From positions 3,745,501 to 3,809,500 of the forward strand of contig NZ_CP020370.1 of assembly GCF_002813775.1 (NCBI RefSeq): a stretch of 64,000 nt of DNA, in the 5' to 3' direction. This document shows positions 11,440 to 58,308 of the stretch, in pieces; position 1 is the first letter of the stretch; the number at the start of each line of letters is the position of its first letter. The position numbers were made by a program, and so were the translations under genes. Under the pieces are notes generated by a model. The model did no database searches. It was not told the origin of the DNA and was given only the letters and a program-made list of their open reading frames with translations. The stretch is from Candidatus Thiodictyon syntrophicum (GTDB lineage: Bacteria > Pseudomonadota > Gammaproteobacteria > Chromatiales > Chromatiaceae).

Positions 11440-13389
11440 TCAAGGCGCGGTCGGAGGCAGCGTGGGGCGGCGCTCCACGCTGATATGGAAGCCGGCCCCG
11501 GCGGGGGATTGGGGACGGTAGACGATGGTCCCGCCGAGCGATTCGACGGCATTGCGGCAGGCCCAGAGGCCGAGGCCCCAGCCGGTGATGTGACGGGAGC
11601 GGGCGCCGCGCCAGAACTGCTCGAAGACCGCCGCCTCCTCGCCCGCCGCGAGCCCGGGGCCCTGATCCGTGCAGTCGATGCGAAAGCATCCGGGGGTGCT
11701 GATCAGCGCCAGCCGGACGCGGCCCGGCCCGCCGTACTTGAAGGCGTTGTCCAGGAGGTTGCCTAAGATCAGCACCAGGCGCGGGGCATCGATGAGGTGG
11801 CACCCGGGGTCGGGTGCGGCGGCGATGGCCAGGTCCAGACGGGCAAGGTCCAGGTGTCCGCCCAGGGCGCCCTGCACCTGTTCGACCTTGGCGTGCAGGT
11901 CGTAGTGGAAGTCTGCCGCGTGGCCCGTCGCGAAGGCGGCGCGTTGGGCCTGGAGACTCTGGACGATGTCGACGAGGTGGTTGGAGAGGTGGGTCAGGTC
12001 GTCGGCCGCCTCGGTGTTGGAGAGCAGACCGCGGCGCAGATTGCCGGCGAGCAGGCGCAGGGAGGACGCGGGGTTGCGGACCTCGTGGGACACCACCTGC
12101 AGCAGGCCGCTGAACTTGTCGGCGACGGCCGCCAGTCTGACGCGCTCGTGTTCCGCCTGCTGCATGCGGCGGGTCTGCTCCGGGACCTCACGCAGGATGC
12201 GCCCGCCCACGATCAGGACCGCGACCAGCATGAGCGACTGGAGCAGCAGGTTGAATTGCCAGAACCAGGCCACCGCGAGGCTCGCCAACTGCGGCAGCCA
12301 GGGGCGGGCCACGATCGGGATCGCACTCAGGCAGGTCGTGATCAGATAGGCCAGGGCGATGCGTCCCAGGGTGGAGGTGCGGCGCCACTGCCAGGGTCCA
12401 TAGACCAGCAGAAAGGCAATAAACCCAAGCTGGACGGCGCGGTTGATCGGCGCGAGCCAGGGATGAATGTCGAGCAGACCGGTCGGTGCGAGCAGCAGCA
12501 GCAGCCAGGCCGCTCCGCGCCAGAAGCGGCGGATGCGGCGGTGCGCCGGAGGCGGGCGCACGATCAGATCGAAGGCGAAGATGCTCGCGGCGGTCAGGAT
12601 GTAGTTGAGCACGCTGGCCGCCCGGCCGAGGACCCCGGGGTCGACAAAGGGCAGGAAATAGGGCAGTTGCCCGGTGACGGCGAGCCCCATCAGATTGAAG
12701 GGCACGCTGAGCAGGACGAAGGCGAGGAAGCGGACCTCCCGGCTGGCGGCCCAGGCCGCCAGCATGATCAGGCTGAACAGGGTCGCCAGGGCCAGCAGCA
12801 TCCCGCCGGTGAGGAAGGCGCGCGCCTGCTCGGTCGCGAAGGCGGTGGCGTCCAGCAGCCGGGGGACCAGGCTGAGGTTGCCGGTGGTGGTCACGCGCAG
12901 CAGCAGGGCATGGTCGGTGATGAGGCGGGGATCGAGGCGAAACGCCTGCATGGTGGTCCCCAGGTCGCGCTCGGACAGGGGCAGAGTGTCGCCGGTGCGT
13001 TGACGCGGTGCCGCCAGGATGCCGTCCGCGGCCAGATAGACCAGTTCGACCAGGTCCAGATTGGCCGCGGTGAGCTTCAGGATCGGGCCCTGCCCGGCCA
13101 TGGGTGCCGGGCGGTCCGGTTCGGGACGGCCGGGCGGCGGGGCGGCGAAATAGCGCGGTTGGGGTTGGAAGCCCAGGTGGATGTCGTTCTGGGCCGGCGG
13201 CAGGCCGCCGCCGCGCCAGCGGCGGGCGGCCTCCTCCCAGGAGTGGACCGGTGCCGGCAGCGTCTGCAAGGCCAGGGGCAGGACGGCCGGGGTGTCTGCC
13301 CCCGACCGGGCCGGGACCAGCAGCAGAGCGCCGATGATGAGGTACAAGAACGCGGGCAAGGGCGCGATGATCCGGCGGATGCGTGGCAC
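11440..13389 (-). CDS. 7TM-type membrane sensor histidine kinase
   Basis: The 649-residue kinase has a signal anchor at 11-30, a periplasmic sensor region at about 35-185 resembling 7TMR-DISM extracellular domain 2, and then seven or so membrane helices between about 190 and 400 (7TM-DISM type). HisKA follows with phospho-acceptor H435 in VVSHEVRNP, and a HATPase_c domain with N-box NLLDNAFKYG (544-553), G1 box DQGPGL and G2 box GWGLGLW. DISM periplasmic domains in this class often bind carbohydrates or small ligands. The response regulator gene follows after eight bases, so they form one operon. The signal is not known. Confidence 0.92.
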   Translation of the reverse strand: MPRIRRIIAPLPAFLYLIIGALLLVPARSGADTPAVLPLALQTLPAPVHSWEEAARRWRGGGLPPAQNDIHLGFQPQPRYFAAPPPGRPEPDRPAPMAGQGPILKLTAANLDLVELVYLAADGILAAPRQRTGDTLPLSERDLGTTMQAFRLDPRLITDHALLLRVTTTGNLSLVPRLLDATAFATEQARAFLTGGMLLALATLFSLIMLAAWAASREVRFLAFVLLSVPFNLMGLAVTGQLPYFLPFVDPGVLGRAASVLNYILTAASIFAFDLIVRPPPAHRRIRRFWRGAAWLLLLLAPTGLLDIHPWLAPINRAVQLGFIAFLLVYGPWQWRRTSTLGRIALAYLITTCLSAIPIVARPWLPQLASLAVAWFWQFNLLLQSLMLVAVLIVGGRILREVPEQTRRMQQAEHERVRLAAVADKFSGLLQVVSHEVRNPASSLRLLAGNLRRGLLSNTEAADDLTHLSNHLVDIVQSLQAQRAAFATGHAADFHYDLHAKVEQVQGALGGHLDLARLDLAIAAAPDPGCHLIDAPRLVLILGNLLDNAFKYGGPGRVRLALISTPGCFRIDCTDQGPGLAAGEEAAVFEQFWRGARSRHITGWGLGLWACRNAVESLGGTIVYRPQSPAGAGFHISVERRPTLPPTAP

Positions 13390-13400
13390 TAGGGGATGCT

Positions 13401-13555
13401 TGTCGCGTCGTTGTCGTTGTCGTTGTCGTAATCGAGGTTATCGTAGCACCCCCTGATTCTCTCGCACCCCAAGTTGCATCGCCTCTTCGATTACGATCAC
13501 GACAACGACAACGACAACGATGGTGTTGTGTTTAACGTGTTCTTGACTCGTTGCC
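13401..13555 (-). repeat. (GTTGTC)n-armed intergenic element, copy 1
   Basis: An about 110-bp core is bounded by inverted arms made of the six-base unit GTTGTC repeated three to four times: 13409-13432 and 13500-13520. On the minus strand the interior reads GCGATGCAACTTGGGGTGCG and continues, closely matching copy 2 at 52979-53074 in the same order. Similarity extends outside the arm to AACGAGTCAAGAACA (near 13530-13555), which copy 2 also has. It lies in the 300-bp gap between the kinase and a truncated gene. No coding frame is evident. Confidence 0.8.
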
Positions 13556-22087: not shown

Positions 22088-22440
22088 ATTGAGATCGGGC
22101 CAACGGCATCGACTTGTTGGGTCAGGGCCGCAACCCGACGTGCAGAGTAACAAAATGGACCCATCATGACAAACCCCGAGGCCCCGGTGCGATCAGAACT
22201 GATTGTGGTGACGGAGATCCCGGGTACGCTCGATCCGTGAGAACTGCCCGCCGTTGTCAAGACATTTCGGGCCGGATGAACGCGACGGGGTCCCGCGGGG
22301 CGCGGAACAATCGCCCCCGCGACTTGCAGCCGGCCCCCCGCGGCCTGACATTCTCCCGACTGCACCGGGGGCACAGCAGCGCCCCTGCCACTCACGACCA
22401 TGACACCCCCTCAGCAACCCGGGGGCCGGAGCAAACACAG
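22088..22440. other. Gene-free stretch between ffs and glcB
   Basis: About 350 bp separate the divergent ffs and malate synthase genes and must hold both promoters. The open frame running through it into glcB looks random. I see no convincing promoter boxes, repeats or small gene. Confidence 0.5.
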
Positions 22441-48683: not shown

Positions 48684-49640
48684 ATGTCCAGACCTCTGCG
48701 CATCGAGCTTGCCGCTGGACTCTACCACGTCACCTCACGCGGTGACCGGCGGGAGGCAATTTATAGCGACGATCAGGAGCACACCGATTGGCTCGGGGTG
48801 CTGGGCGAGGTGTGCAGTCGGTTCAACTGGCGCTGCCACGCCTGGTGCCAAATGACCAACCACTATCACATCGTCGTGGAGACTCCCGAGACGAATCTCT
48901 CCAAAGTGATGCGACAACTCAACGGCGTCTACACGCAGGCGAGCAATCACCGCCACGGGCTGGTGGGACACCTTTTTCAGGGGCGCTTCAAGGCCATTCT
49001 GGTCGAACGCGACGCCTACCTCGTGGAACTGGCGCGCTATGTGGTGCTCAACCCCGTGCGCGCCGCGATGGTTGCCCAGGCGGGCGACTGGCCGTGGAGC
49101 AGCTATCGGGCGATGGTTGGCGCGGAACCCGCGCCGGTGTGGCTGGAGATCGACTGGGTGCTCGGGCAGTTTGGCGAAAAGCGTGTTCAAGCCCAGGCCG
49201 GTTACGCTGCTTTCGTTGGCCAGGGAATCGGGCAGCCCGGCGTCTGGGACGGCCTGCGTCATCAGGTCTTTCTTCGCAGCGAGCGGTTTGTGGAACAACA
49301 CTGTGGTGCTGCGACGCCGGAGCGCCTGCGCGAAGTGCCACGCGCCCAGCGTCGGCCGCTGGCCAAGCCCCTGGCAGACTTCATGCACCGCTACCCCGAC
49401 CGGGGCGAGGCCATGGCTCGGGCCTTTCAGACCGGCGTCTTCTCTAGTTTCTCCGTCGCGCGCGTGGCGTCGCGCACCAACTCGGGCTCAGTGCCGCGCG
49501 CACGCCGGATAAACGCTTTTTCGTTAGAGCGCAACAACCGAGGTACCTGTGCAGTCATCATCCCTGATCTTTACCGCAACACTTTGTGTCCAATTGTTTC
49601 TCGCACCTCAAGCCATGTCCGAGGACACTCCGCCTATTAA
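48684..49640 (+). CDS. REP-associated tyrosine transposase (RAYT), C-terminus chimeric
   Basis: This Y1-type HUH single-strand transposase starts MSRPLRIELAAGLYHVTSRG. It has the metal-binding NHYHIVVETP motif and the catalytic-helix region HLFQGRFKAILVERDAYLVE. RAYTs process REP hairpins. The body to about residue 270 (ending near MARAFQTGVF) is normal, but the last 36 or so residues are encoded by the 342-bp LprI repeat in another frame (49532 onward), so the native C-terminus has been replaced. An ATG at 48672 is an alternative start. Confidence 0.88.
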   Translation: MSRPLRIELAAGLYHVTSRGDRREAIYSDDQEHTDWLGVLGEVCSRFNWRCHAWCQMTNHYHIVVETPETNLSKVMRQLNGVYTQASNHRHGLVGHLFQGRFKAILVERDAYLVELARYVVLNPVRAAMVAQAGDWPWSSYRAMVGAEPAPVWLEIDWVLGQFGEKRVQAQAGYAAFVGQGIGQPGVWDGLRHQVFLRSERFVEQHCGAATPERLREVPRAQRRPLAKPLADFMHRYPDRGEAMARAFQTGVFSSFSVARVASRTNSGSVPRARRINAFSLERNNRGTCAVIIPDLYRNTLCPIVSRTSSHVRGHSAY

Positions 49641-51536: not shown

Positions 51537-52943
51537 ATGCCCAAGGTGCCAAGCGCCTGGCTCGGCGCATTCGCCCTGCTGTCACTGTCACCCGCGACGG
51601 CACTGGCCGGCGACGCCGCACCGGCCCTCGATCTCACCGCCCACCCGGTCGGACTGGCGGCACTCCTGATCTTTATCCTGGCCTATGTGGCGGTGATGGC
51701 GGAGGAGTTCCTGCACCTGCGCAAGTCCAAGCCGGTGGTGCTCGCCGCCGGTCTGATCTGGGCCATGCTCGCCTATGTCTCAGCCCAACAGGGGGCGCCC
51801 CTGGCGGCGGAGCAGGCGGTGCGCCACGCCTTGCTGGACGTCGCCGGCCTGATCCTGTTCCTGCTGGTGGCGATGACCTATATCAACGCCCTGGCTGAGC
51901 GGCAGGTCTTCGAGGCCCTGCGCGCCTGGCTGATCCGCTTGGGCGTAGGCTTTCGCGCCCTGTTCTGGATGACCGGGGCCTTGGCCTTCATCATCTCCCC
52001 GATCGCCGACAATCTCACGACCGCGCTCCTGATGTGCGCCGTGGTAATGGCGGTGGGCGCCGGGAACCGCGCCTTCGTCATCTTGGCCTGTATCAATATC
52101 GTGGTGGCGGCCAATGCCGGCGGCGCCTTCAGCCCCTTCGGCGACATCACCACCCTGATGGTCTGGCAGAAGGGGATCATCGACTTCTTCGGGTTCTTCG
52201 TCCTGTTCGTGCCGGCCTTGGTGAACTGGCTCATTCCCGCGGCCCTGATGCACTTTGCGGTGCCCGATCTCAAGCCCGCGGCCGAGTCCGTCGCGGTACC
52301 GATGAAGCGCGGCGCCCGCCGCATCCTCGCCCTGTTCCTGCTCACCATCGCCACCGCCGTGGGCTTCCATCAGTTTCTGCACCTGCCGCCCGTCATCGGC
52401 ATGCTGACCGGCCTGGGTTATCTCCAGTTTTTCGGTTACTACCTGCGTATGACCCATGGCCGTTGGCAACATCGCAATGGCGACCGCGCCACCGTAGTCG
52501 GCGACATGACGCCCTTCGATGTCTTCAATCCGGTGGCGCGCGCCGAGTGGGATACCCTGCTGTTCTTCTATGGTGTGGTGATGTGTGTGGCCGGATTGGG
52601 CTATGTCGGCTATCTGTCACTGGCCTCGGAGGTCATGTATCTGCAATGGGGGCCAACCGCGGCCAATATCGGGGTCGGGCTGGTCTCGGCCGTGGTGGAC
52701 AACATCCCGGTGATGTTCGCGGTGCTCTCCATGAACCCGCAGATGGATCAGACCCAGTGGCTGCTGGTGACCCTGACCGCGGGGGTCGGCGGCTCACTCC
52801 TGTCCATCGGTTCCGCGGCCGGCGTCGGCCTGATGGGTCAGGCGCGCGGCATCTACACCTTTTTCGGGCACCTGAAGTGGACCCCGGCGATTGCGCTCGG
52901 ATATTTCGCCAGTATCTGGGTGCATCTGTTGATCAATGGCTAA
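51537..52943 (+). CDS. nhaD: Na+/H+ antiporter NhaD
   Basis: The 468-residue inner-membrane antiporter has a cleavable-looking leader (ALLSLSPATALAGDAA) and about 12 helices. Family motifs include VAVMAEEFLHLRKSKPVVLA, ISPIADNLTTALLMCAVVMA, NIVVAANAGGAFSPFGDITT and GLVSAVVDNIPVMFAVLSMN, where the buried Asp/Asn-Pro residues form the ion path. It exports Na+ or Li+ in exchange for protons at alkaline pH. It is a single gene; the (GTTGTC)n element copy 2 follows within a few bases of its stop. Confidence 0.94.
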   Translation: MPKVPSAWLGAFALLSLSPATALAGDAAPALDLTAHPVGLAALLIFILAYVAVMAEEFLHLRKSKPVVLAAGLIWAMLAYVSAQQGAPLAAEQAVRHALLDVAGLILFLLVAMTYINALAERQVFEALRAWLIRLGVGFRALFWMTGALAFIISPIADNLTTALLMCAVVMAVGAGNRAFVILACINIVVAANAGGAFSPFGDITTLMVWQKGIIDFFGFFVLFVPALVNWLIPAALMHFAVPDLKPAAESVAVPMKRGARRILALFLLTIATAVGFHQFLHLPPVIGMLTGLGYLQFFGYYLRMTHGRWQHRNGDRATVVGDMTPFDVFNPVARAEWDTLLFFYGVVMCVAGLGYVGYLSLASEVMYLQWGPTAANIGVGLVSAVVDNIPVMFAVLSMNPQMDQTQWLLVTLTAGVGGSLLSIGSAAGVGLMGQARGIYTFFGHLKWTPAIALGYFASIWVHLLING

Positions 52944-52947
52944 TAAC

Positions 52948-53074
52948 GAGTCAAGAACAAGCTAGACACAAACACAATCGTTGTCGTTGTCGTTGTCGTA
53001 ATCGGAGAAGCGATGCGATTTGAAGTGCGAGAAAATCCGGGGCGCCACGATAGCCTCGACAACGACAACGACAA
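52948..53074 (+). repeat. (GTTGTC)n-armed intergenic element, copy 2
   Basis: It begins with AACGAGTCAAGAACA just after nhaD, then four GTTGTC-type units (52979-53002), an interior starting GCGATGCGATTTGAAGTGCG, and the opposite arm of GACAAC units (53056-53074). The order and much of the sequence agree with copy 1 on the minus strand at 13401-13555. Confidence 0.82.
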
Positions 53075-53227
53075 GGCAATGACGCTGACGGCATTCTCCA
53101 ATGGACCTGTTTAACGTAGTCAGTGAGCCGTTCCTTAACGGCCGCGTTTCTATGGAAATGTCGGCAGGCTATGTCACAACGGTCACGGGATGGCAGTCTC
53201 CACCATATCTTCACTATTCAACGAACA

Positions 53228-58034: not shown

Positions 58035-58161
58035 GGAATGGCTCCGGTGGTGGCTGGGCTAAGGTGTCGGGGGAGGACCGGGGGGAGCGCCGTGCGCGAC
58101 GGTGCCGCGGCCGGCAAAGGGATCTGATGATAGCCGCGCGCGGCGGCGCGGTGGGAGTGGG

Positions 58162-58223
58162 TCGTTGTCGTTGTCGTTGTCGTAATCGTGGTCGGATTAT
58201 TCGATTACGACAACGACAACGAC
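58162..58223. repeat. (GTTGTC)n-armed intergenic element, copy 3 (short form)
   Basis: An arm of four units ending CGTAATCG (58162-58188) is separated by about 12 bases from a near-perfect complementary arm (58202-58223). The interior of copies 1 and 2 is missing, leaving a tight hairpin between the TPR gene and lgt. Confidence 0.82.
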
Positions 58224-58308
58224 GCCCGGTCCGTAGGAACGTCCGGTCGCTGTCGCTGCAGGGTACGCATCGCGGCAGGCGCGGGCGTCCGTGCTACCAT
58301 TTGCCCCT

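Follow-up and report, generated by a model that had tools for sequence, protein, structure and literature searches.

Hexamer-armed intergenic palindromes in Candidatus Thiodictyon syntrophicum: two probable MITE-like families, one traced by alignment to an element with an S23p gene

Results

Palindromic elements in the window

We analysed a window of 64,000 nucleotides from Candidatus Thiodictyon syntrophicum (contig NZ_CP020370.1, positions 3,745,501 to 3,809,500), in which three palindromes with (GTTGTC)n arms had been predicted. All three lie where the original prediction placed them (13401-13555, 52948-53074, and 58162-58223), and their arms are inverted repeats, 27-29 nt long and 93-96% complementary in copy 1, 18 nt and 100% in copy 2, and 22 nt and 100% in copy 3. 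With ≤1 mismatch allowed, the motif GTTGTCGTTGTC matches 11 times in the window, where 0.31 matches would be expected; a count of 11 is reached in 0/100 shuffles. Alignment confirmed that copies 1 and 2 have an interior of about 52 nt and an outer flank in common. The three copies had been taken for a single family; copies 1 and 2 belong to what we call class A (core of ~52 nt, flanks LA and RA), whereas copy 3 belongs to class B, which has another core (7-13 nt) and other ends (flanks LB and RB). The features are as follows.

13389-13553, minus strand: copy 1, class A, with RA (the right-hand end) cut near 13389
13521-13553, minus strand: copy 1, LA (the left terminal region, AACGAGTCAAGAACACGTTAAAC...)
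13488-13520, minus strand: copy 1, 5' hexamer arm
13436-13487, minus strand: copy 1, core of about 52-53 nt, in which an ORF start is joined to the ORF end, a relic with the frame lost
13407-13435, minus strand: copy 1, 3' hexamer arm
22186-22245, plus strand: remnant of class B flanks, in which RB-like sequence comes immediately after LB, without arms or core (recognised by eye)
52940-52943, plus strand: copy 2, CTAA, left half of a proposed 3-4 bp target duplication (based on the empty site in the related genome G006), containing the stop codon of the upstream gene
52944-53134, plus strand: copy 2, class A, complete
52978-53003, plus strand: copy 2, 5' hexamer arm, (GTTGTC)3 GTAATC
53004-53055, plus strand: copy 2, core (from alignment)
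53013-53114, plus strand: copy 2, predicted reading frame of 33 codons, a putative leftover of the S23p ORF (MRFEVRENPGRHDSLDNDND...)
53056-53076, plus strand: copy 2, 3' hexamer arm
53135-53138, plus strand: copy 2, TTAA, right half of the proposed target duplication (same basis)
58161-58272, plus strand: copy 3, class B, truncated, with arms, an inverted core, and a partial right flank RB (about 58224-58272), and with no left flank
58161-58188, plus strand: copy 3, left hexamer arm
58202-58223, plus strand: copy 3, right hexamer arm

Copy 2 had thus been located correctly and measured too short, the full element spanning 52944-53134. A position next to gene ends, proposed for all copies, holds for copy 2, which starts directly after a stop codon, whereas copies 1 and 3 sit between divergent gene starts. 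Copy 3 had been explained by a deletion between the arms, an account that gives way to that of a truncated class B element whose core is inverted and whose left flank is missing. The joined class B flanks at 22186-22245 possibly originated by excision of a hairpin.

Abundance and distribution

The genome (7.74 Mb in 3 contigs, two of them of 416,864 and 484,824 bases) contains many further copies, as a genome-wide search proposed with the original prediction revealed: the arm 19-mer GTTGTCGTTGTCGTAATCG has 404 exact matches on both strands (208 + 196) and the reversed pattern 0. Among 55 genomes searched as relatives, the 19-mer occurs in 8, comprising 7 of the same genus (the source genome included, and thus 6 of the 7 other genomes of the genus), with 3 to 620 matches per genome, and 1 from another genus of the family; among 369 genomes across the class, it occurs in the source genome only. 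Sampling of 2.40 Mb of the source genome, part of it picked for listed matches, yielded 133 arm-pair elements. A contiguous, unselected 809.5 kb of the chromosome holds 32 elements (17 class A and 15 class B), a density that would correspond to roughly 270 over the whole chromosome. According to a crude gene caller, 129/133 elements lie mostly outside called genes, and the gaps that hold them are tandem, divergent, and convergent in 84, 27, and 22 cases, against 608, 194, and 168 for all gaps of at least 100 bp.

When 84,980 species were scanned for the palindrome with a short core, 91 stretches matched, 80 of which were retrieved as loci. They come from Chromatiaceae and also from Desulfobacteraceae, Planctomycetota, Deltaproteobacteria, Opitutales, and Anaerolineae metagenome-assembled genomes (MAGs), with flanks that vary by lineage (40/80 loci inspected). 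Three Desulfobacteraceae MAG contigs (L194, L228, and L214) contain, alongside the TCGTNN palindromes, others whose arms are of a different hexamer type, ATCGNN/CGATNN. Copy 2 had no match in plasmid and phage collections, nor did viral contigs match the palindrome pattern or the protein alignment. In the open-licence literature we found no description of these repeats, and the view of a repeated, undescribed-looking intergenic element with arms of six-base period stands. Other repeats are nested in some copies in the source genome: one (CCTTGATCATAACTCCGGCC ... GGCCGGAGTTATGATCAAGG) in the class A core at C1:931083 and C1:1996566, and a third (ATCCACAGATGAACACAGAT...) in LA at 1989893.

Ends, target duplications, and empty sites

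Both families have sharp ends. Those of class A read ...CTNAG-T-AACGAGTC and YTNAG-GAACGG, with imperfect terminal repeats, whereas class B ends in GGGTGCGATCAGAACTGATGTG on both sides, a 22-bp terminal inverted repeat. Among 21 class B end pairs (11 from the source genome and 10 from other loci), 5 have a perfect (9/9) target duplication of 9 bp; the mean match at this length is 5.81 against 3.33 in mispaired-flank controls, and other lengths are near the control. For class A, the 5-bp match of 2.81 against 2.34 in controls is a weak excess (21 pairs, 20 distinct, one locus having been counted twice), so that the main grounds for the proposed duplication are copy 2 and the consensus of the ends. 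G006 has an empty site where the source genome carries copy 2: in this relative, whose flanking gene is 98% identical in its final 206 bp, the sequence is atgg-TTGA-CGGCCG, whereas the source genome reads atgg-CTAA-[element]-TTAA-CGGCCG, which fits a duplication of 3-4 bp. The class A ends and the proposed YTNA duplication of 3-4 bp resemble those of the IS5 group. The difference in duplication length, 3-4 bp for class A and 9 bp for class B, points to different enzymes.

The empty site, a check proposed with the original prediction, was thus found for copy 2. Arms are present in 0/5 other genomes of the genus with a locus matching the copy 2 site and in 0/7 with one matching the copy 3 site (420 bp viewed in each case). 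At the copy 3 locus, G006 differs across the whole upstream stretch viewed, so that it offers no clean empty site.

Variation of the arms and cores

The numbers of left and right hexamers show no positive correlation (Spearman -0.21, n = 133; 29 elements have equal numbers), a pattern to be expected of arms that slip independently. The core is inverted relative to the flanks in 5/63 scorable class A elements, 2 of which have a flank score of 15.8, below the 99% null score of 20.8, and in 8/35 scorable class B elements, copy 3 included. The inverted class B element at 287982 still has a target duplication of 7/9, and its core was therefore probably inverted within the element. Two elements, at 840409 and 1192297, are chimeras of class A and class B flanks, and synteny between the source genome and G006 is lost at the element at 2273099.

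A full-length element and the class A deletion

A link to a protein came from 1/80 palindrome loci (Anaerolineae), which has an ORF for a four-helix-bundle protein between two hexamer palindromes. A search of 12 arm-bearing genomes for PF05635 gave matches in 11 and yielded locus L323 of Thiocystis minor, where a class A element is complete: it has both ends (LA and RA), hexamer arms, and one interior ORF. This ORF, of 148 codons, encodes a four-helix-bundle protein that starts MQFAHEQLDVY and ends ...VRENCGCYDQIDDDNDNDNDSDNDNGAKGIR, its tail being the right arm. G006 holds a second full-length class A element, with the right flank cut short (L333), and an intermediate in which the ORF is partly deleted (L355). 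The terminal regions of the full-length elements, CTNAG-TAACGAGTC... and ...GAACCGTTC-C-TNAG, are the same as those of class A, as are the inverted hexamer arms; the ORF begins just inside the left arm and continues through the right arm, which encodes an (Asp-Asn)n tail. The 6-nt unit equals two codons, so that growth of the arm adds codons without changing the frame.

When aligned with this ORF, the Thiodictyon core AAGCGATGCAATTTGGGGTGCGAGAGAATCCGGGGCGCTACGATAACCTCGATTAC corresponds to its first and last parts, MQFG|VRENPGRYDNLDYDNDN, and the junction of the deletion falls between ATGCAATTTGGG and GTGCGAGAGAATCC. The stretch from the start codon to GTGCG measures 351 nt in both L323 and L333, compared with 12 nt in class A. 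The deletion of 339 bp keeps the frame, joins codon 4 to the last codons, and leaves the 52-nt core. Judged by this alignment, class A is an internal-deletion derivative of the full-length element with the four-helix ORF. The deletion that did occur is, on the same grounds, one that removed the gene inside the class A core, not sequence between the arms of copy 3. A length of exactly 52 nt is found in 52/86 cores of class A, and 63/86 keep this length modulo 3. Third codon positions vary more than the others (0.135 vs 0.072, p = 0.048) among copies that are related, and for that reason we make no claim of a selected peptide.

In class B, no remnant of a four-helix ORF is visible, and no parent element was found; its arms may therefore be acquired. 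At locus L338, a four-helix gene is accompanied by a right end, GCTGCACTAG, that resembles the ends of palindromes in Thiocapsa and Thiobaca ("class D", with ends on CTAG). The sequences suggest that the class D palindromes, too, may descend from elements with a four-helix gene.

The S23p protein

The ORF belongs to the S23p family (TIGR02436/PF05635), and we label its subfamily HExLDVY. Six proteins (P0001-P0006) exceed the TIGR02436 cut-off, and a PDB relative is 2gsc (E 1.2e-8); a single-protein structure prediction was poor (pLDDT 52) and was set aside. The family is known from intervening sequences of 23S rRNA; according to excerpts of PMC4990558, S23p proteins form a pentamer of solved structure and have no known function, and past mobility of the intervening sequences is still a hypothesis. 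The family search matched 21/146 genomes at E 1e-10, with 10 matches in 8 genomes below 1e-40. No HExLDVY-type protein was found in the source genome among the candidates scored (19/19, and 28/226 in a second search), tblastn detected no trace in the sampled 2.40 Mb, and its 3 PF05635 matches are all of the other type. The copies in the source genome may hence be orphans or rely on something else.

Repeat-unit length and protein subfamily

The flanks of PF05635 genes (200 bp on each side; 61/63 loci testable) were scored for inverted repeats and for the tandem period that fits best. In 12/31 and 11/30 loci (rank-test p 9e-9 and 3e-8), the inverted-repeat score lies above the 99th percentile of 183 control windows; a strong period, reaching the control 99th percentile in one or both flanks, is seen in only 7 and 6 of them. 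The period follows the subfamily, being 6 in 15/15 HExLDVY-type loci and 7 in 33/34 loci of other subfamilies, as counted in the 49 loci whose best period is 6 or 7 with a score of at least 21/30 (12/61 dropped). Merging of loci at least 80% identical left 53 testable, 21 of them above the inverted-repeat limit, and gave period 6 in 10/10 and period 7 in 30/31 (Fisher p 1e-8), with 12 dropped, including 2 of HExLDVY type and several others with period 9; L336 and L353, kept separate here, look like one insertion in two species. These counts are to be read with the facts that the first genomes were picked for hexamer palindromes, that loci within a genome are not independent, that the 21/30 limit was chosen after the scores had been seen, and that some control windows may contain arms.

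A second sample comprised 13 plasmid loci (11 of the 25 listed among 39 records, and 2 of 4), all of which lack the HExLDVY motif. The best period is 7 in 8 of them, 8 in 3, and 9 in 1; the remaining locus has no clear period, and period 6 does not occur. Only 20/30 is scored by 3/12; the L323 protein itself had no match among plasmids. The 3 PF05635 genes of the source genome are without TCGTNN arms, and arms in their subfamily are 7-nt. An Asp-X tail, recognised by eye, is present in 11/14 distinct proteins of the 6-nt type with a readable C-terminus, indicating that the right arm is usually coding. Four PF05635 loci (L311, L319, L324, and L325) depart from the 6/7 rule, the best period in their flanks being 9 nt. 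On cyanobacterial plasmids, S23p-type genes with 7-/8-nt arrays at L362 and L373 lie between cas genes (cas6/cas4; cas10/Cmr3-family).

Discussion

Origin and movement of the elements

Copies 1 and 2 are very probably non-autonomous, MITE-like derivatives of a small mobile element with an S23p gene, and copy 3 a member of a second MITE-like family, class B. In the mechanism that we envisage, a cut-and-join transposase would act in trans on the element ends to bring about insertion, and the four-helix protein would serve as an arm-binding accessory or maintenance factor. Arms would lengthen and shorten through replication slippage, and pairing and recombination between arms would invert cores and join flanks from different copies. 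For end pairs 0.6-3.2 kb apart in the sampled 2.40 Mb of the source genome, the longest ORF was inspected by eye over its first 60 residues; no transposase was seen, and such pairs look like chance. An IS1 transposase was considered for class B and rejected, no IS1 family protein having been found.

A rival account, to which we give somewhat less than an even chance, holds that the four-helix protein is a passenger, that an ordinary DDE transposase moved class A and another one class B, and that the arms arose as a side effect of slippage within a palindrome. It draws strength from the same arms occurring with duplications of 9 bp and of 3-4 bp, which imply different transposases, and from the many copies in a genome where no HExLDVY protein was found, yet it leaves unexplained both the location of S23p genes between tandem-repeat arms in several phyla and the tracking of protein subfamily by unit length.

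That the palindromes are functional intergenic hairpins (terminators, attenuators, or regulatory RNAs) is improbable. Predicted folds are indeed strong, with z scores for copies 2, 1, and 3 of -3.5, -6.8, and -6.8 as RNA and -3.7, -7.2, and -9.4 as DNA, but the elements are not enriched in convergent or divergent gaps, their gap types matching the background, the copies have no Rfam match, and arms are absent from the 420 bp viewed in 5 relatives at the copy 2 site and in 7 at that of copy 3. Still less credible are REP/BIME-type repeats moved by a RAYT (Y1) transposase. The elements are palindromic, intergenic, and of high copy number, and the genome has 11 Y1_Tnp matches, but the ~3.3-kb loci around these hold 0 exact arms and 0 class A or B ends or cores (≤4 mismatches), and class B has target duplications. 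One of the 11 matches, a gene for a Y1 (REP-associated tyrosine) transposase-like protein, lies in the window at 48684-49640; GTCC-type palindromes occur at 4/11 of the Y1 loci and hexamer arms at 0/11. Independent origin of simple hexamer repeats, which the low complexity and variable length of the arms might suggest and which had been named as the outcome that would overturn the original prediction, can be practically dismissed, and is refuted for class A, by cores and ends that the copies have in common beyond the hexamers and by the apparent descent of class A from one ORF.

Relation to known systems

The reading of MITE-like derivatives of an S23p element invites comparison with the intervening sequences of 23S rRNA in Coxiella and Leptospira, which likewise have a single S23p-family ORF between complementary, stem-forming ends and, as in the class A parent, short tandem repeats beside the ORF. 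In Coxiella, according to excerpts of PMC4990558, GACAGAT heptamers lie beside the ORF in numbers that vary by strain, and one strain has a 176-bp deletion in the ORF. These heptamers, located before an S23p ORF, fit the period-7 pattern, and are the only tandem arms around S23p genes that we found described in the open-licence literature. In contrast to the intervening sequences, the elements described here are intergenic and of high copy number, have transposon-like outer ends and a target duplication (proposed in the case of class A), and have 6-nt arms, the right one being part of the coding sequence. They do not lie inside rRNA genes: the window has no rRNA match, and 129/133 elements are mostly outside called genes.

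As in MITEs, the elements are short and gene-less, with terminal repeats, target duplications in class B (proposed in class A), many intergenic copies, and, in class A, an origin by internal deletion. They differ from MITEs in their variable hexamer-array arms, in cores that invert, and in a parent whose only gene is not for a transposase; we call them MITE-like rather than MITEs because that only ORF encodes a four-helix-bundle protein. The GTAG and CGTC REP families, as presented in excerpts of PMC3733652, are also palindromic and intergenic, whereas the present elements are much longer, have target duplications in class B and proposed ones in class A, and showed no link to RAYT. PF05635 is said, in excerpts of PMC10053308, to resemble Avd, the accessory protein of diversity-generating retroelements; unlike those, L323 has one ORF only, with no reverse transcriptase or template repeat between its ends, where there is room for the four-helix ORF only.

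Implications

A broader view, which we put forward tentatively and regard as rather less likely true than false, is that S23p genes are the core of widespread mobile elements that lack their own transposase and whose four-helix protein may recognise the arms and set the unit length (6 nt for HExLDVY, mostly 7 and sometimes 8 for the others). The rRNA intervening sequences might then be members that landed in rRNA genes, and the gene-less palindromes their non-autonomous offspring. With full-length, part-deleted, and fully deleted copies in close relatives, together with an empty site, the function of S23p proteins and the mobility of intervening sequences become testable, and the link between subfamily and unit length provides a concrete and unexpected prediction of what S23p proteins bind.
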